Part shown: positions 8,878 to 17,361 of the stretch, piece after piece
How positions within the stretch are numbered: the first letter of the stretch is position 1
Layout of the letters: every line of letters begins with the position of its first letter
From: Desulfosudis oleivorans
GTDB lineage: Bacteria > Desulfobacterota > Desulfobacteria > Desulfobacterales > SURF-7
Length of the DNA stretch: 64,000 bases
Direction of reading: 5' to 3'
NCBI GenBank assembly: GCA_020723325.1
Contig: DYJD01000026.1
Span: forward strand, 1 to 64,000
Notes under the pieces: model-generated
What the model was told of the DNA's origin: nothing
Seen by the model: only the letters and a program-made list of their open reading frames with translations
The model's database searches: none
Position numbers and translations under genes: made by a program

Positions 8878-11800
8878 ATGAAAAAACGAATCAGCGGCTT
8901 GTTTTTTGGTCTCTTGACTTTACTAGTCGTGTCATCATCTGCCTTGGGTGTTGAGGTAAGCTTGCTGGGTCCGCTTCAATACGATCGCACCACAGGTGCG
9001 CCGAACATTTATTCCAAATCTTTTCGAGGTGTGGAAGGCAAGGGGACATTGATTATCAGAAACGGCGACGCCAATGGAGGAAACCGCATTACCAGCGCGG
9101 GTGTTTTCATAAACGACGTTACTGTTTTCAATCCGGATGATTTTAAAAAGAAGGCTGATGTCCTGACCGCCGAAGTAAATTTGGCCGAAAGCAATACCAT
9201 AAAGGTCGAACTACGCGGCGCACCCGGAACCTATATTTCTGTTGAGATCATTCAGGATATCGATCCGCCCGTGGTCACCATTCAAGCGACACCCGCGTCC
9301 GTCATCCTCGGGAATACCGCCGAACTTGCCTGGACATCGGAAAACGCCGACATTTGTGAAATCACGCCTGATATCGGTCTAGTCGACTTGAGCGGCCGGA
9401 TGACAGTAAGCCCCCAAGCCACCACCACTTACACCATCACCGCTATCGGTTTGGGCGGCACTGCCACCGCCGAAACGGTTGTTTCTGTATTTTTGCCACC
9501 GACTGTAACTATCGATGTTGATCCGGATACGATTATAGAGGGTCAAACAGCCACTCTAACCTGGACGTCGGCCAATGCGGAAAATTGTGTCATTCAACCC
9601 GGTTTGGGGTCGGTTCCGCTAAACGGCACCACCACTGTCTCCCCCAATCAGACTACAATTTACACTATCACAGCCTCAGGTCCGGGGGGGATCGTTACGG
9701 CCGAAGTCCAAATCGAGGTGCAACCAATAGCCGGTCCGCCGCGCATCAACTTTACGCCTTCATCAATAACCATTTCTCGAGGCCAGTCCGCTTCACTGTC
9801 ATGGACCGCTGCTATTGCGCAAAAAGTCTATATCGATAACGGTATCGGTACCGTTCCCACCACCGGAAGCATCTCTGTTACGCCGGAGCATACCACTGTT
9901 TATAGTTTGACTGCCACCGGGGTCGGCGGTTCGTCCAGCGCGCAAGTGTTCGTGCATGTCAATGGCAATCCAGATCCTCAACCCGAGGGGACGTTCGGGC
10001 ATATGTATAATGACTTGATCCCGGCAGACGCCTCGGTTTTTTATTATGAGGAAAAACGCTTTGCCATCATTACGGGCGAGGTCGTTGATTTGCAGGGCCA
10101 ACCCATTGAAGGGGTAACCGTCTCCATTCATAAACATCCTGAATACGGCACTACCACAACCGACGCACAGGGAGATTTCTCCTTACCGGTTGAAGGTGGC
10201 GCCGTCATGACCGTTGTCTATCATAAACAAGGTCTGGTTACTTCTTCCAGGCAGGTCAACGTGCCGTGGAACGATTTTGTGATAGCTGAAACCATTGCCA
10301 TGCTGACTGAAGATCCGGCCTCCACCAGCGTTAACTTTGACGGCAGCCCCGAAACGGTTGTCACTCATCGCAGCACGCCCTATACCGACGAGTTCGGCAC
10401 CCGTTCCGCAACATTGGTATTTACCGGCGACAATCAGGCCTACCTGTCCGATGAAAACGGCAATGCTGTTCAATCCCTGAACACTATTACTGCCAGGGCT
10501 ACAATATATCCGACGCCCGCCTCCATGCCGGCCGTCCTTCCCCCGAATTCCGCATTCACTTATTGTGTGGAACTCGCCGTGGATGGTGCTCAAAGAGTAA
10601 AATTCAGCAAACCGGTCACCACCTGGGTCGATAACTTTCTTGGGTTTGACGTGGGCGAAATCGTTCCCGTGGGCTATTTTGATCGCGACCGAGGCGTTTG
10701 GGTGCCTTCGGATAACGGTATCGTCGTTCGGTTGCTCGACACTAACGGCGACGGCAAGGTTGACGCCATCGACACCAACGGCGACGGCCAACCCGACGAT
10801 CTAGACGGTGATGGTACATATACAAACGAAGCCATCGGCCTGGAAGACAGTGCCCGCTATGCGTCGGGAACCACTTTCTGGCGGGTCGCCATAACCCATT
10901 TCACGCCATGGGATTGTAACTGGCCATATGGTCCTCCGGATGATGCCATTCCACCCAACCCCCCAACAGATCCCGACATGGATGAGCAAAAGAAAGAAAA
11001 TGAGGACTCCAAAGGTTGCTATAATTCCTTTGTGGAGGAAAGAAGTCGGATCTTCCACGAAGATATTCCAATTGCCGGCACGGATATGACGCTTCATTAT
11101 GCCAGCAACCGGGTGGAAGGCTACAAGACCATTATCAGTGTGCCTGTAAGTGGGCCGACTGTGCCGTTCAGTCTTAAGGGAATCTTCGTTAAAGTCGAAA
11201 TAGCCGGCAGGACTTTTATGCAGTCCTTGTCTCCGTTGCCCAATCAGAAGGCGACGTTTTTCTGGAACGGGCTGGATTATCTTGGAAACAAAACGCAAGG
11301 GGTGGTAACCGCGCATGTCCATATCGGTTTTGTTTATGATACGTTTTACTACTCTCCTGATGAATTCGCTAAAGGATTCGCTCAGGCAGGGAGAAATAAC
11401 ACTGGAATCAAGGCGTTGAAAGAGGCGACCTTCTGGAAGGATTTCAACATTAAAACCACAGTCGAAAGTGATCGGGGGAGCGGAATTATCGCCGAAGGCT
11501 GGACGCTTTCTTTGCACCATCGGCTTTACCATGACAATGATTCAGTTCTTATTAGCAAAGGCGATGGAAGCTTTGCCAAAGTTGGCTTCAATATCATCAC
11601 CACAGTGGCCGGCACTGGTTCTCGCGGCGACAGCGGAGACGGTGGCTTGGCCGTTGGAGCGCAGCTGAATCGTCCAACTAGTGTGACCGTGGATGCTTCT
11701 GGGAGTCTCTATATTGTGGATCGAGATAACCGCCGTATCCGGAGGGTGAATACTGATGGTGTCATTACAACCGTAGCTGGAGGGGGTGACGGTGGAGATG

Positions 11801-14800
11801 GTGGGCCTGCCACTGAAGCATGGCTTGAGTGGCCACAAGGAATCGCCGTGGACGCCTCCGGAAACCTGTATATCTCGGATTCAATCAGCCACTGTATCCG
11901 AAAAGTAGATACAAGTGGCATCATCACGACCGTGGCTGGCAACAGCGGATATGGCTTCGGGGGCTACAGTGGAGACGGCGGTCCAGCAATTCAAGCGCAG
12001 CTTAACGAACCATACGATGTAGCTGTGGATGCTTCCGGAAGCCTCTATATATCGGATTCTTACAACCACTGTATCCGTAAAGTAGATACAAGCGGCATTA
12101 TCACGACTGTGGCTGGCAACGGCCTATGGGGTGAAGATGGAGATGGTGGCCCCGCCGTTCAAGCGCGAATTAGCTTTCCTAAGGGTATAGCCGTGGACAC
12201 TTCCGGAAACCTCTATATAGCAACCCATAATCGTATTCGGAAGGTGAATACAAACGGTGTCATCACCACCGTGGCCGGCAACGGCTCATGGGGATACAAT
12301 GGGGGCGGCGGTCCCGCACTGCAAACAGCGCTTCATTTGCCTTGTGATATGGCTCTGGACGCTTTCGGAAATCTTTTTGTTGCGGATATGGGTGACGAAT
12401 GGCCCTCGAATATGAGTAACGATCGTATCTGTAAAGTGGCTCAGGCGCCAGGAACTTTCGCAAATGCGATAACCGTCAGCGGCCAACTCGCAGTTGCCGA
12501 AGGAAGCGAGATTGGGCATGTGATGAGCACGAGTGGCCTGCATATTCGCACAATCGATCTTTATACAGGAGTCTCCTTGTACGAATTCTCTTATAACCAG
12601 GAAGGAAAGCTTGTTTCCATCACCGACCAATTCGGAAACACGGTTCATATTGAAAGAGCTGGTGGCTCCCCAATGGCCGTCATCTCGCCCGATGGAATGA
12701 GAACAGAGCTTTCCATTAACAGTGCCAACCACTTGGCGCAGGTCACCTACCCCGGTGGTGTTCATTATAATTTTCATTATACGGCCGACGGTTTGCTTAC
12801 CGAAAAGATCGATCCCAAAGGCAATCATTTCCGCAACGGATTCGATTCCCAAGGTCGACTGGTGAATATTTCGGACGACGAAGGCGGACTCTGGCGCTAC
12901 TCCACGATGGTAGAAGCTGGTGGCGACAATCTTGTCGAAAAACTAAGCGCCGAAGGGAACCTCACCACCTATCGAGATCATACCGATCCACTTGGCGCCT
13001 ATCAGTCGACTATAACCGACCCCAACGGTGCCCAAACTCTCTATAGCCGCTCGGCGGATGGTCTTACAGCGCAAAAGACTACCAGCTGCGGCATGTCGCT
13101 TGCCTTTCAATATGGCCTTGATTCCGAGTATGGATTCGATTATGTGAAGCAAATGAGTGAAACCACACCATCGGGACTGAAAAGGAGCATCACACATCAG
13201 AAGACCTATGTGGACTCGAACGCGGATAAAATCCCCGATCAAATCACCGAAATTGCGATGGTAAATGGCAAGGCTACAACAATTTCAACCGATGCTCTCC
13301 AGTCGAGTAAATTCGTCACCTCACCAGCGGGGAGGACCGTGACCACTCTTTACGATCCAACAACTTTGCTTACCACCAGTCTTAGCATCCCGGAGCTTTT
13401 TGAAACGACCTTTAGCTATAACGAAAGAGGCCGTATCACCTCCATCATCACGAATACTCGGGAGACCGCTTTCGCTTATGACAGCCGGGGCAATCTCTCT
13501 TCCGTCACTGATCCCGAATATCATACCACAACTTACGGATATGACGATTTGGGGCGGGTAACCGCGGTTTATCGGCCGGATACGTCGGATCTTTTCTTCA
13601 GTTACGACGATAACGGCAATATGACCATATTGACCAATCCGAATACGATCGCCCATGGATTTGGATACAACCGGGTTAATATGTTCGGCAGCTATCAAAC
13701 CCCCTTGAGCGGCGGATACAGCTTCTTGTATGATAAAGATCGTCGACTGGTGCGCAAGACCTTCCCTTCCGGCAGACAAATTTACAATCTTTATGACGGA
13801 ATGCTGCTGAGCCAGATCCAGACACCGGAAGGCAATATCGATTATACCTATCTGTGCAGTTCCAAGGTCGGGAGAATTACCAAGGATGGCGAGAGCGTCA
13901 CTTACGGCTACGACGGCAAATTGCTTACCTCGGAAGTAATAAGCGGTACGTTGAATCAAAATCTGACTTTCACCTACAACAATGATTTTAATGTCAAGTC
14001 TCTCACCTACGCCGGCACGGTTAATTCCTTTACCTATGACAATGACGGTCTGCTGACCGGATCAGGGGTCTATGCCATATCCCGCAATGCGCTGAACGGT
14101 TTACCGGAGAGCGTTTCTGGTGGTTCATTCCATCTCTCCCGCTCTTTTAACGGTTATGCTGAGATCAGCGATCAAACGGCAACTGTCGGCGGACAGGCTT
14201 TGCTGTCCTGGAGTGTATCGCCGGACAATACCGGCCGGATTCTGTCGAAAACCGAAACCGTCGGCGGAGTGACGGTGACCTTCGGATACGATTATGACAG
14301 CATGGGCCGTCTCCTTACGGTTACAAAGAACGGTGTAAAGGTTGAAGAATACGATTATAACCTCAATGGCTCTCGCGAATACGAAACCAATACCTTGCGG
14401 GGAATCACCGGAAGAACCCTGGCGTATTCGGATGAAGATCACTTGCTCACAGCGGGTGGAGTATCCTATCAATACGATCGGGACGGCTTTTTGACCAGCA
14501 AAACCGAGGGAGCTGGAAGCACAGGCTATACCTATTCTTCCAGAGGTGAGTTGCTCAACGTTGCGCTTCCGGATGGCACCTATATTGAATATGAAAATGA
14601 CCCGCTTGGACGACGCATTGCAAAACGAGTCAACGGAACCATGACGGAAAAGTATCTGTGGCAAGGCCTTACACGGCTTTTGGCCACCTATGACGGTGCC
14701 GATAACTTAATCCAGCGCTTTGAATATGCCGATGAACGAATGCCGGTTGCAATGACCCGGGGCGGTGTCACCTACTATCTAACCTATGATCAGGTCGGTT

Positions 14801-15411
14801 CATTGCGATTGGTTGCCAACGCTTCGGGAAATGTGGTAAAAAGAATCGATTATGATTCATTCGGCAATATTATAACGGATACCAACCCGGCTTTCAAAGT
14901 TCCGTTTGGATTTGCCGGAGGCCTGCACGATCGAAACACCGGTCTGGTAAGATTCGGTTATCGCGATTACGATCCCGAAACCGGTCGCTGGACTGCCAAA
15001 GACCCGATTCTTTTTGCCGGTGGGGATACGGATCTGTATGGGTATGTCCTAAATAATCCGGTCAACCTGATTGACCCATATGGATTGCATATAATACAAT
15101 CTGGCTTCCATAGTCATTCAGAAAAAAACAGTTCAGCCTATGCTACAACAGTCGGCCCTTACACCCGTTATAATCAGAACTTTGATAATTTACATCCTCT
15201 AAAACAGGAATCTGTGGAATATCATGAGAGTTTGCATAGAGAATATGGACCTTTCATGGGGGAGCAGAAAGTTCGTGAGCAAGAAATTAATTTTATAAAA
15301 GGACAGAAAAATGAATATGATCCCAATTCGAATGAGTATAAAATCCTTGATAAATGGTTAAAGGACAATGAAGATAGCTATAAAGAAGATTATGGAAAAC
15401 AATGCCCATAG
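8878..15411 (+). CDS. Giant secreted Rhs/YD-repeat protein with NHL propeller and HExxH toxin-like tip
   Basis: 2177 aa. Order of parts: Sec signal peptide (1 to about 22); beta-rich domain (to about 120); three tandem Ig-like domains of about 78 aa (about 128-365), each with a xLxWTS/xA core and a TTxYTIT end; carboxypeptidase-regulatory-like domain (about 395-470); Asp/Gly-rich calcium-type loops DTNGDGKVDAIDTNGDGQPD (about 622-641); five NHL-type repeats (about 903-1188) with the recurring phrase ITTVAG; YD repeats (about 1230-2000); and the Rhs core ending DPYGL (2066-2070). The last 107 residues are a variable tip with HESLH at 2116-2120 and acidic residues about 10-20 positions later (GEQKVREQE), the layout of a zincin metallopeptidase. 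Base composition turns AT-rich exactly after DPYGL, a usual sign of tip exchange. ATG 8878 follows GGGGGATACTTAC; a TTG at 8863 lies in frame upstream. No VgrG or PAAR domain is present, so export is Sec-first. Sigma-54 control is likely. Confidence 0.9.
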   Translation: MKKRISGLFFGLLTLLVVSSSALGVEVSLLGPLQYDRTTGAPNIYSKSFRGVEGKGTLIIRNGDANGGNRITSAGVFINDVTVFNPDDFKKKADVLTAEVNLAESNTIKVELRGAPGTYISVEIIQDIDPPVVTIQATPASVILGNTAELAWTSENADICEITPDIGLVDLSGRMTVSPQATTTYTITAIGLGGTATAETVVSVFLPPTVTIDVDPDTIIEGQTATLTWTSANAENCVIQPGLGSVPLNGTTTVSPNQTTIYTITASGPGGIVTAEVQIEVQPIAGPPRINFTPSSITISRGQSASLSWTAAIAQKVYIDNGIGTVPTTGSISVTPEHTTVYSLTATGVGGSSSAQVFVHVNGNPDPQPEGTFGHMYNDLIPADASVFYYEEKRFAIITGEVVDLQGQPIEGVTVSIHKHPEYGTTTTDAQGDFSLPVEGGAVMTVVYHKQGLVTSSRQVNVPWNDFVIAETIAMLTEDPASTSVNFDGSPETVVTHRSTPYTDEFGTRSATLVFTGDNQAYLSDENGNAVQSLNTITARATIYPTPASMPAVLPPNSAFTYCVELAVDGAQRVKFSKPVTTWVDNFLGFDVGEIVPVGYFDRDRGVWVPSDNGIVVRLLDTNGDGKVDAIDTNGDGQPDDLDGDGTYTNEAIGLEDSARYASGTTFWRVAITHFTPWDCNWPYGPPDDAIPPNPPTDPDMDEQKKENEDSKGCYNSFVEERSRIFHEDIPIAGTDMTLHYASNRVEGYKTIISVPVSGPTVPFSLKGIFVKVEIAGRTFMQSLSPLPNQKATFFWNGLDYLGNKTQGVVTAHVHIGFVYDTFYYSPDEFAKGFAQAGRNNTGIKALKEATFWKDFNIKTTVESDRGSGIIAEGWTLSLHHRLYHDNDSVLISKGDGSFAKVGFNIITTVAGTGSRGDSGDGGLAVGAQLNRPTSVTVDASGSLYIVDRDNRRIRRVNTDGVITTVAGGGDGGDGGPATEAWLEWPQGIAVDASGNLYISDSISHCIRKVDTSGIITTVAGNSGYGFGGYSGDGGPAIQAQLNEPYDVAVDASGSLYISDSYNHCIRKVDTSGIITTVAGNGLWGEDGDGGPAVQARISFPKGIAVDTSGNLYIATHNRIRKVNTNGVITTVAGNGSWGYNGGGGPALQTALHLPCDMALDAFGNLFVADMGDEWPSNMSNDRICKVAQAPGTFANAITVSGQLAVAEGSEIGHVMSTSGLHIRTIDLYTGVSLYEFSYNQEGKLVSITDQFGNTVHIERAGGSPMAVISPDGMRTELSINSANHLAQVTYPGGVHYNFHYTADGLLTEKIDPKGNHFRNGFDSQGRLVNISDDEGGLWRYSTMVEAGGDNLVEKLSAEGNLTTYRDHTDPLGAYQSTITDPNGAQTLYSRSADGLTAQKTTSCGMSLAFQYGLDSEYGFDYVKQMSETTPSGLKRSITHQKTYVDSNADKIPDQITEIAMVNGKATTISTDALQSSKFVTSPAGRTVTTLYDPTTLLTTSLSIPELFETTFSYNERGRITSIITNTRETAFAYDSRGNLSSVTDPEYHTTTYGYDDLGRVTAVYRPDTSDLFFSYDDNGNMTILTNPNTIAHGFGYNRVNMFGSYQTPLSGGYSFLYDKDRRLVRKTFPSGRQIYNLYDGMLLSQIQTPEGNIDYTYLCSSKVGRITKDGESVTYGYDGKLLTSEVISGTLNQNLTFTYNNDFNVKSLTYAGTVNSFTYDNDGLLTGSGVYAISRNALNGLPESVSGGSFHLSRSFNGYAEISDQTATVGGQALLSWSVSPDNTGRILSKTETVGGVTVTFGYDYDSMGRLLTVTKNGVKVEEYDYNLNGSREYETNTLRGITGRTLAYSDEDHLLTAGGVSYQYDRDGFLTSKTEGAGSTGYTYSSRGELLNVALPDGTYIEYENDPLGRRIAKRVNGTMTEKYLWQGLTRLLATYDGADNLIQRFEYADERMPVAMTRGGVTYYLTYDQVGSLRLVANASGNVVKRIDYDSFGNIITDTNPAFKVPFGFAGGLHDRNTGLVRFGYRDYDPETGRWTAKDPILFAGGDTDLYGYVLNNPVNLIDPYGLHIIQSGFHSHSEKNSSAYATTVGPYTRYNQNFDNLHPLKQESVEYHESLHREYGPFMGEQKVREQEINFIKGQKNEYDPNSNEYKILDKWLKDNEDSYKEDYGKQCP
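11585..12440 (+). repeat. Five tandem NHL-type repeats inside the Rhs gene
   Basis: Units of about 160-175 bases encode the pattern IITTVAG, then GDGGPA, a proline or leucine segment, then AVDASGNLYISD and IRKV. The ITTVAG codons fall near 11592, 11761, 11921, 12097 and 12258. Such units build a beta-propeller, probably for binding or surface display. Confidence 0.85.
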
Positions 15412-15471
15412 AATAATGGCAAAAGGGTTCAGTAATTATGTATCCTTAAGGTCATAAAGGATGATGGAGAT

Positions 15472-15966
15472 ATGAGCTATACAAAATCATATTATAGTGC
15501 TTCACAAAGCATAATTAATATAATAACGCTTATTACCATTTTATCAATTAGCAATAATGTTAACGCAAAAATAGTTGTTTATTCGTTTGAAGAAAAAGTT
15601 AATAGATCTGATGTAATTGCTATTGGGAAAATTATAAAAATAACAAAAAATATATTTACAAAAGATGAAATAATAATTGATATTATTGAGTTAATTAAAG
15701 GTGATATTTCAAAAAAGCAAATAGAAATAGAATATGGAAACTATTTTTTTGCACCGAAAGAGGATTTGTCTAATTTTGTAGACGGTGGAAAATATGTATT
15801 TTTTATTACTCAAGATGAGTCATCATATTATTTGACGGGAGCTTCGAGTGGATATTATCAAATACTAGAAAAAGATATGATTTGTTTCGATGAGAAAAAA
15901 ATAAAAATCGAAGATTTCAAAAAAACAATAAATAATGAATCTAAAGCTCGGGTTTCAGCTCAGTAA
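15472..15966 (+). CDS. AT-rich exported protein, candidate TIMP/NTR-like immunity partner of the Rhs tip
   Basis: 164 aa, first gene after the Rhs stop (60-base gap), on the same strand. A hydrophobic segment (IINIITLITILSI) ending NNVNA looks like a signal peptide, so it should act in the periplasm or outside the cell. The mature part follows the strand and motif pattern of bacterial TIMP/NTR-like proteins: EEKVNRSDVIAIGKII, then a strand ending ELIKGDI, then an xIEIEYG strand, then FVDGGKYVFFI. The N-terminal cysteine of true TIMPs is absent. Composition is far more AT-rich than the flanking genome and matches the Rhs tip, so the two probably moved together. Immunity by position is the usual rule for Rhs tips; the TIMP resemblance is by eye only. 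ATG 15472 is preceded by GGAGAT, with AAGGATG slightly further up. Confidence 0.6.
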   Translation: MSYTKSYYSASQSIINIITLITILSISNNVNAKIVVYSFEEKVNRSDVIAIGKIIKITKNIFTKDEIIIDIIELIKGDISKKQIEIEYGNYFFAPKEDLSNFVDGGKYVFFITQDESSYYLTGASSGYYQILEKDMICFDEKKIKIEDFKKTINNESKARVSAQ

Positions 15967-16623: not shown

Positions 16624-16935
16624 TCAGTGCTCGTTTTTCGGCAGTCGGGATTGCCAGCTTCTCGGATGTCGACGCTGATGCATAACAGCGACAATCAAAA
16701 TAGTGTTTTCCCTGATTTGGTAAATGATCCCGTAAGGAAATCGATTGGTCAGACAGCGGCGGGTCCGATTTGACGAAGGAAGGCGGGACCAGGCTTCCGG
16801 ATTTTCTTTGATCCGCTCTATCGTATCTTCCACCTCTTCGGTAAAATCCTCGCCCAGCCCGTGTTTTTGGATATTGTAAAAAACAACGGCTTCATAAAAC
16901 TCCATGCGGGCGGGTATGAGAAAGTCAACCTTCAT
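16624..16935 (-). CDS. RelE/ParE-family toxin
   Basis: 103 aa of the ParE/RelE fold. It opens with a short strand and helix (VDFLIPARMEFYEAVVFYNIQ), has the typical central helix ending RIKENPEAWSRL, then the strand pair TRRCLTNRFPYGIIYQI and IVAVMHQRRHPRSW. Such proteins inhibit DNA gyrase or cleave mRNA on ribosomes; sequence alone does not say which. It is the second gene of a pair: its ATG (16935) overlaps the antitoxin stop by four bases, the usual coupled layout. It stands in a recombination-rich stretch. Confidence 0.88.
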   Translation of the reverse strand: MKVDFLIPARMEFYEAVVFYNIQKHGLGEDFTEEVEDTIERIKENPEAWSRLPSSNRTRRCLTNRFPYGIIYQIRENTILIVAVMHQRRHPRSWQSRLPKNEH

Positions 16936-17153
16936 CGGCGGCGGAGATCTTTGAAAACGTCCTCTGCGGATACGGTTTTTATCTCGCCCCGTTCATACGC
17001 ATCAATCCGGCTTTCGGCTTCCTCAGCCCACAATCGGTCTATTTCCTCATAGGATATATCCAGGCTGGTAAACAAACGTTCCGCCAACTGTGCCCTTTCA
17101 TGCGGCGGCAGAGTCAGTGCTTCGGCCAGCACTTGTTCGGCTCTTGCGGTCAT
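16932..17153 (-). CDS. Addiction-module antitoxin (TIGR02574-like)
   Basis: 73 aa, acidic and helical. It carries the family pattern AEALTLPPHERAQLAERLFTSL, a middle WAEEAESRIDAYERGEI and a closing SAEDVFKDLRRR. This is the standard partner of ParE/RelE toxins of this type: it binds and masks the toxin and probably represses the pair. It is first in the pair and overlaps the toxin start by four bases. Its own ATG (17153) overlaps the TGA of a decayed XRE-like reading frame, so it was once coupled to a third gene. The GAGGAGGACCAT context upstream supplies a ribosome site. Confidence 0.88.
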   Translation of the reverse strand: MTARAEQVLAEALTLPPHERAQLAERLFTSLDISYEEIDRLWAEEAESRIDAYERGEIKTVSAEDVFKDLRRR

Positions 17154-17361
17154 ATGGTCCTCCTCGAATCCGATCCTTTCATGGCCAGTTGTTCGAAAAG
17201 ATGCTTTTTGATAAAGGCTTCGATAAGAACCTTTAGATGCATACGGTCTTCGTCTGAAAGCTCATCTCTTTGGGCGAACTGGTCGATTAGTTCAATCTCG
17301 TATTTTTCCTAAGACACGATTCTTCCCGCTTCTCAGCAAATAGTCAAGGCTGACATCCAGG
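17150..17361 (-). pseudogene. Frameshifted remnant of an XRE-type regulator
   Basis: Two minus-strand frames read as consecutive parts of one protein end. Bases 17334-17361 encode SLDVSLDYLLRSG-type sequence, the end of an XRE helix-turn-helix domain (compare the family phrase GVSxDYLL). After a frame change near 17310, bases 17150 to about 17305 encode EKYEIELIDQFAQRDELSDE and a helix ending AFIKKHLFEQLA, the usual C-terminal helix of such regulators. The DNA-binding helices are missing. The fragment ends in TGA inside the antitoxin start codon. Confidence 0.55.

Follow-up and report, generated by a model that had tools for sequence, protein, structure and literature searches.

A protease-like Rhs tip and its TIMP-shaped exported neighbour probably form a toxin and antidote pair in Desulfosudis oleivorans

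Animal tissue inhibitors of metalloproteinases (TIMPs) possess a free N-terminal Cys1, within a CxC motif that follows the signal peptide, and a disulfide-rich domain. They inhibit metzincins by an N-terminal wedge, in which zinc is chelated by backbone groups of residue 1. The closest bacterial systems are the following. In Listeria, a secreted metzincin cleaves and releases a TIMP-like lipoprotein (Mtz-Tim), and metzincin/TIMP-like pairs are reported in many Gram-positive bacteria (PMC8235301). The metalloproteinase effector PAAR2-Tse2 of the type VI secretion system (T6SS) in Stenotrophomonas rhizophila is paired with the immunity protein Tsi2, which was assigned by structural comparison and BLAST as resembling Potempin A from Tannerella, the genus making the matrix metalloproteinase (MMP)-like karilysin (PMC13340143). 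VgrG2b of Pseudomonas was experimentally shown to be a periplasmic gluzincin toxin (HExxH plus Glu), and its exported immunity protein PA0261 binds the toxin (PMC6899460). Finally, the HExxH metallopeptidase tips Tox-MPTase1-5 occur in toxins with Rhs repeats, for which a dash stands in place of a listed immunity protein (PMC3482391). Here we describe a locus in a 64,000-nucleotide stretch of Desulfosudis oleivorans (assembly GCA_020723325.1, contig DYJD01000026.1, positions 1 to 64,000; hereafter the window), in which a protease-like Rhs tip and the TIMP-shaped exported protein encoded next to it, hereafter the partner, probably form a toxin and antidote pair.

The locus has the layout of a Rhs polymorphic toxin, namely a Rhs core, then a short variable tip, then a small downstream gene. 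An earlier note on this DNA had placed the tip and its exported neighbour at 15085-15966, and these coordinates are correct. The features are as follows:

8878..15411, + strand: Rhs protein of 2177 aa, starting at ATG 8878 (frame open from TTG 8863), with a signal peptide judged by eye
14851..15087, + strand: Rhs-associated core domain (TIGR03696, profile match), ending at the DPYGL boundary
15085..15411, + strand: variable C-terminal Rhs tip of 108 residues, the proposed zinc metallopeptidase toxin
15223..15237, + strand: HESLH (HExxH) motif, tip residues 47-51
15277..15285, + strand: EQE, tip residues 65-67, of which Glu 65 or Glu 67 is a candidate third zinc ligand, judged from position alone
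15472..15966, + strand: partner of 164 aa including the signal peptide, the proposed TIMP-fold immunity protein
15472..15567, + strand: signal peptide of the partner, residues 1-32, with cleavage between VNA and K, by inspection
15568..15963, + strand: mature TIMP/NTR-fold domain of the partner (modelled: residues 31-164)
15085..15966, + strand: low-GC cassette of tip and partner, 29.0% guanine plus cytosine (GC)

The Rhs protein forms a teneurin-like shell with matches to TTR, FN-plug, NHL and YD-shell models (window 8878-15087), and the partner gene starts 60 bp downstream of it on the same strand. The GC content of the cassette is far from that of the Rhs body (50.9%); among 1263 equally long segments spaced at 50 bp, none is as low, the lowest elsewhere being 39.2%. 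This common low GC is the appearance expected of a tip-immunity cassette acquired as one unit. Both the tip and the partner are probably exported, judging from signal peptides assigned by eye rather than by a prediction program.

The partner sequence has no family match in Pfam (at E 10), NCBIfam, PHROGs or PADLOC, including PF00965, no usable match in the PDB, and no viral, plasmid or phage relative. The PF00965 profile matches proteins in 12 of 247 phylum genomes, none of them above the cut-off. A loose search with the partner in 395 phylum genomes gave matches at E <= 1 in 53 genomes, the window's own included. Among the loci inspected, one (L040, the same as L057) was picked by eye as the sole collinear and exported candidate; its exported protein adjoins a protein with the sequence HEAGHASGLAD. 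This choice is guarded by a profile made without L057 and by the later samples. Using L057 as a query among 146 relatives, we found matches in 8 genomes, with the window's genome absent. The resulting profile of nine relatives, which excludes the partner, was compared with 429 frames of the window, and the partner alone scored below E 0.7 (E 8.7e-9; 29.9 bits, against 4.0 for the runner-up). In the whole 7.22-Mb genome the partner is the sole match at E <= 10 (E 1.2e-6). The profile without L057 still detects it among the window frames at E 6.7e-7, and hhalign aligns the partner with the family at E 4.2e-6 and a probability of 86.9. Since profiles built without the partner or without L057, as well as hhalign, all match it, the partner is by sequence comparison a divergent member of a bacterial metzincin-linked TIMP-like family, and the homology covers most of its exported domain. 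Members of this family vary widely, being 18-28% identical to the first row of its alignment A1; a PDB search with the A1 profile gave two poor matches only. The 52 members scanned have no Pfam match and a single NCBIfam match, which is weak and unrelated. No member was found in viral_contigs.

An AlphaFold2 model of partner residues 31-164, built from 52 rows (the partner and 51 relatives), has a predicted local distance difference test score (pLDDT) of 82.0 and a predicted template modelling score (pTM) of 0.77. In Foldseek, the top hits are four entries of agrin NtA (E 1.7e-4 to 2.9e-4, top TM 0.58), of which two carry titles that relate them to N-TIMP-1; next come complement C3b, TIMP-1 of the MT1-MMP complex (E 1.8e-3, TM 0.55) and the PCOLCE NTR domain. 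In VIA, the first rank belongs to TIMP-1 of 3ma2, again from an MT1-MMP complex, with Z 11.4 and a root-mean-square deviation of 2.9 over 117 aligned residues (chain length 119), and the next rows are TIMP-1 with MMP-3 and N-TIMP-3 with TACE (N-TIMP-3 at Z 10.8). By their titles, the best 50 VIA rows are all TIMPs, agrin NtA, PCOLCE or meteorin NTR domains, or complement C3, C4 and C5; identity to the partner in these rows is 7-16%. The C-terminal domain of complement C3, C4 and C5 has the NTR fold too. A TIMP/NTR fold of the OB type is thus well supported for the partner by the predicted model. The earlier note had guessed this fold for the exported protein and had proposed structure prediction with a fold search of the 164-aa protein; the model, Foldseek and VIA bear the guess out. 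In several VIA rows model residue 2 (A32) aligns with TIMP residue 1, which places the predicted mature N-terminus within one residue of TIMP Cys1. The partner has a single Cys, at position 138, and none at the N-terminus; none of the 51 relatives has a Cys within the first 8 domain residues, as placed by script. A single-sequence AlphaFold2 model of the partner (pLDDT 46.4, mixed fold matches) was set aside.

The genomic context of the relatives was analyzed in three samples. Sample 1 comprises the nine relatives (L057 and those of the 8 genomes it matched), and all nine are joined to a protein with a metzincin motif, lying directly upstream of it (gaps of -17 to 72 bp) or fused with it (L067). 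The motif pattern caught eight of these loci, and L067, with S replacing the glycine, was assigned from its translation. Six of the eight proteases scanned, L067 included, are above the cut-off of the PF00413 matrixin profile, while L066 and L069 are below it and L072 lay outside the scan. Sample 2 contains 53 loci, from several phyla by record titles, that were collected by scanning genome_contigs with three of the nine relatives. A same-strand frame with a metzincin motif abuts or overlaps the TIMP-like gene in 37 of them (31 downstream, 6 upstream only). Sample 3 was obtained with a profile of ten sequences, the partner included, which gave 38 matches in 28 of the 395 phylum genomes; leaving out the partner and two relatives already counted, 35 remain. 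Among these, 29 are linked to a metzincin motif, 22 as adjacent genes and 7 as fusions, with a pattern that allows G, S, N or C at the glycine (27/35 without C, that is, without L179 and L182). The TIMP-like part is N-terminal to the protease motif in all seven fusions. The unlinked loci are L184, L186 (at a contig end) and L187-L190. The link to proteases is kept in two forms, as gene neighbours and as fusions.

The same loci provided controls: none of 135 other gene-like open reading frames (ORFs) of sample 3 is linked to a metzincin motif, and 6 of 252 ORFs of sample 2 are, all lying 5' of a metzincin already counted in the linked loci L085, L087-L089 and L091; these six are themselves further metzincins. 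Kinship and a few near-identical loci inflate the link counts: L076/L072 and L102/L071 are repeats across samples 1 and 2, and within sample 2 stretches of 40 residues are common to L088/L089, to L097/L126 and to L112/L118. No member occurs in both samples 2 and 3. The 35 of sample 3 include two frames of L161 that have one protease between them, and since frames were taken from stop to stop, a few of the linked ones show wide overlaps. Together, the loci L057, L066-L073, L074-L126 and L157-L190 outline a wide exported TIMP-like family, mostly beside or fused with matrixin-type proteases. One such pair (L080) lies on a metagenome contig labelled Klebsiella pneumoniae, a label that probably stems from faulty binning. 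No Rhs core turned up among those of the relatives' loci that were searched. The neighbour of the partner departs from the usual family setting of an abutting or fused metzincin, being a Rhs protein that carries HESLHREYGPF. In the window's genome, the best PF00413 match reaches 16.7 bits against a cut-off of 24 bits, so that no matrixin above this cut-off was found there, PF00413 being the only metzincin family sought. That 16.7-bit protein reads as archaemetzincin-like by its motif.

The Rhs tip contains a single HExxH motif, HESLH, with acidic residues at +6, +13, +18 and +20 from its first His, those at +18 and +20 being Glu. This agrees with the earlier description of HESLH followed by acidic residues about 10-20 positions on. 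The site HESLHREYGPF is no HExxHxxGxxH/D site of the metzincin type. No usable match to the tip was found in Pfam, NCBIfam, PHROGs, PADLOC or the PDB. The Tox-MPTase1-5 models of Pfam gave none at E 10, a test limited by the HMMER filters and by divergence for a single orphan sequence. No convincing relatives of the tip were found in 194 relatives, 395 phylum genomes, plasmids, phages, genome_contigs and viral_contigs. Weak matches among the 194 relatives and 395 phylum genomes fall mostly on one tip stretch, and the window segment 15130-15216 (tip residues 16-44), with VGPYTRYNQNFDNLHPL, resembles a protein of L004 with 56% over about 29 residues. We rejected this likeness as homology: by its sequence, the L004 protein looks like the large subunit of a NiFe-hydrogenase, and the resemblance is probably due to chance. 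The HExxH motif, the Rhs-tip context and the neighbour together suggest that the tip is a zincin.

The genome encodes 10 Rhs cores. Five other tips were excised by script, none of them like the HESLH tip; the script located no core end in 4 of the 10 cores and placed it too early in L196. Of the other tips at L198 and L200, one is Fic/Doc-like by inspection, and one resembles an M15-type cell-wall peptidase; the gene after the latter encodes a protein whose N-terminus is hydrophobic. Farther along the window, at about 16624-17160 on the - strand, lies a small gene resembling ParE/RelE-type toxins, preceded by a frame that is addiction-module-like by inspection.

We consider it fairly probable that the locus encodes a Rhs toxin of the zincin type and, as its immunity protein, a protein of the TIMP fold. 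The Rhs shell would be exported with a small zinc-dependent peptidase at its C-terminus (gluzincin-like, with HESLH and a downstream Glu), which would attack competitor proteins outside the cytoplasm. The partner, with its TIMP/NTR fold and Sec-dependent export, would bind the peptidase in the periplasm and so shield the producing cell and its kin. If it acts as animal TIMPs do, its mature N-terminus and nearby loops would occupy the active-site cleft. On this account the tip would bind zinc and cleave proteins, and it would form a complex with the partner and be inhibited by it through a wedge of the TIMP kind. The role of immunity protein and inhibitor proposed in the earlier note gains genomic support from the relatives, which mostly adjoin or are fused to metzincin-type proteases, although the tip itself is no metzincin.

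Several observations weigh against this reading. The homology of the partner is distant: L057 alone misses it in the window's genome at E <= 0.01, and a profile of the 51 scan relatives detects it at E 0.0015 only. A metzincin neighbour is lacking at 16 of the 53 loci of sample 2 (L084, L093, L094, L097-L100, L104, L110, L111, L115, L116, L118, L124-L126), and 10 of the 16 have more than 2 kb visible on both flanks, so the association of the TIMP-like family with proteases has exceptions. Visibility is below 350 bp downstream at L084 and L118 and below 700 bp upstream at L093, L097, L124 and L126. The gene order of the relatives is mostly inhibitor followed by protease, and it is toxin followed by partner here. 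The proteases linked to the relatives carry metzincin motifs and the tip does not, so the partner's inhibition would need to extend to a different clan of zincins. It also has no N-terminal Cys1 of the animal TIMP type; as zinc chelation by TIMPs uses the backbone of that first residue, the partner might conceivably form such a wedge even with no Cys there. As to the tip, none of the zincin profiles in the Pfam and NCBIfam scans matches it, and no relative was found that could show conservation of its HExxH. The motif arises in 3.1% of 200,000 shuffles of the tip and is present in 7 of 135 gene-like control ORFs; HExxH alone is therefore weak, mildly surprising evidence. Apart from these points, it can be observed that the unlinked TIMP-like genes of sample 2 (all but L084 and L118) are nearly all gammaproteobacterial by record titles.

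The frequency of HExxH in shuffles and control ORFs would also suit a different reading, in which the partner is an immunity protein, HESLH is there by chance, and a TIMP/OB-like fold was recruited against some other toxin activity; the lack of a usable family match for the tip fits it as well. This is rather unlikely in our judgement, for most other members of the partner's family are linked to zinc proteases, so that HExxH in exactly the partner's neighbour is not expected by chance, and HExxH-bearing Rhs tips are a known kind. The partner could instead be functionally unrelated to the tip, either carried along as a passenger or inhibiting a different cellular protease. Relatives without a metzincin neighbour (the 16 of 53 in sample 2 and 6 of 35 in sample 3), a tip that is no metzincin and a genome in which PF00413 was the sole metzincin family sought all leave room for such a case. 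We nevertheless regard it as quite improbable, given that the partner is the sole family member found in its genome, that no PF00413 match there exceeds the cut-off, and that the partner shares the low GC of the tip and occupies the standard position of an immunity gene.

A folding or release factor, or a prodomain-like substrate that is cut or displaced by the protease, is suggested by the Listeria pair, whose TIMP-like lipoprotein is reported to be cleaved and released by the metzincin (PMC8235301). The TIMP-like domain is N-terminal to the protease motif in the seven fusions scored and in L067, as this would require of a prodomain. The proposed protease of the present locus, however, is borne by a very large shell, with the partner encoded separately downstream in the manner of immunity proteins, and we regard such a role as very improbable here.

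If a zincin toxin with a TIMP-fold immunity protein is indeed encoded, the locus represents a Rhs zinc-protease toxin together with its immunity protein, whose mechanism can be guessed from the fold. The TIMP-like family has no name in the family libraries, and the loci of sample 2 come from several phyla. A broader picture can be drawn only tentatively: a wide, uncatalogued bacterial family of TIMP-fold protease inhibitors may accompany matrixin-type proteases, encoded either separately or within one and the same protein, and in one lineage such an inhibitor may have become the immunity protein against a Rhs toxin of another zincin clan. Were this true, the pairing of TIMPs with metalloproteases in animals would be a single instance of a bacterial arrangement that is far older and more widespread. 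Two questions can now be tested, whether bacterial TIMP-fold proteins inhibit the neighbouring proteases and whether the pairing of TIMPs with proteases predates animals.

Each step of the proposed mechanism has a precedent: HExxH tips on Rhs proteins, a periplasmic gluzincin with its immunity protein, a metzincin/TIMP-like pair, and an immunity protein like Potempin A. No TIMP-fold immunity protein of a Rhs toxin was found in the open-access literature searched, where some candidates were judged by their listing alone. Three papers were discarded as precedents: in the portions available, 'timp' is an author name in PMC13375697, TIMP1 concerns animal cells in PMC13243786, and TIMP is absent from PMC11148199.

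Compared with animal TIMPs and NTR domains, the partner is alike in its predicted fold, which agrin NtA, PCOLCE NTR and complement C3-C5 match too, whereas it is only 7-16% identical, possesses one Cys, lacks the N-terminal Cys and does not match PF00965. The parallel with animal TIMPs drawn in the earlier note therefore stands for the fold and the kind of partner, and fails for the N-terminal Cys and for a metzincin site. The Listeria Mtz-Tim pair likewise has an exported TIMP-like protein encoded beside a secreted metalloprotease, but its protease is a metzincin instead of a Rhs tip, and Tim is described as cleaved and released, with no immunity role. The Tox-MPTase toxins carry HExxH on Rhs proteins as the present locus does, although a Pfam search limited by divergence gave no match of the HESLH tip to their models. 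VgrG2b-PA0261 shares with the proposed pair an HExxH toxin (with a candidate Glu here) and an exported immunity protein, and differs in that VgrG2b is a T6SS spike fusion and that the levels of PA0261 depend on disulfide formation. In S. rhizophila, the Tse2 effector is MMP-like and is borne on PAAR for delivery by the T6SS, in contrast to a Rhs tip here; combining an interbacterial metalloproteinase effector with an immunity protein that has a signal peptide, Tse2-Tsi2 is the closest precedent for the idea.

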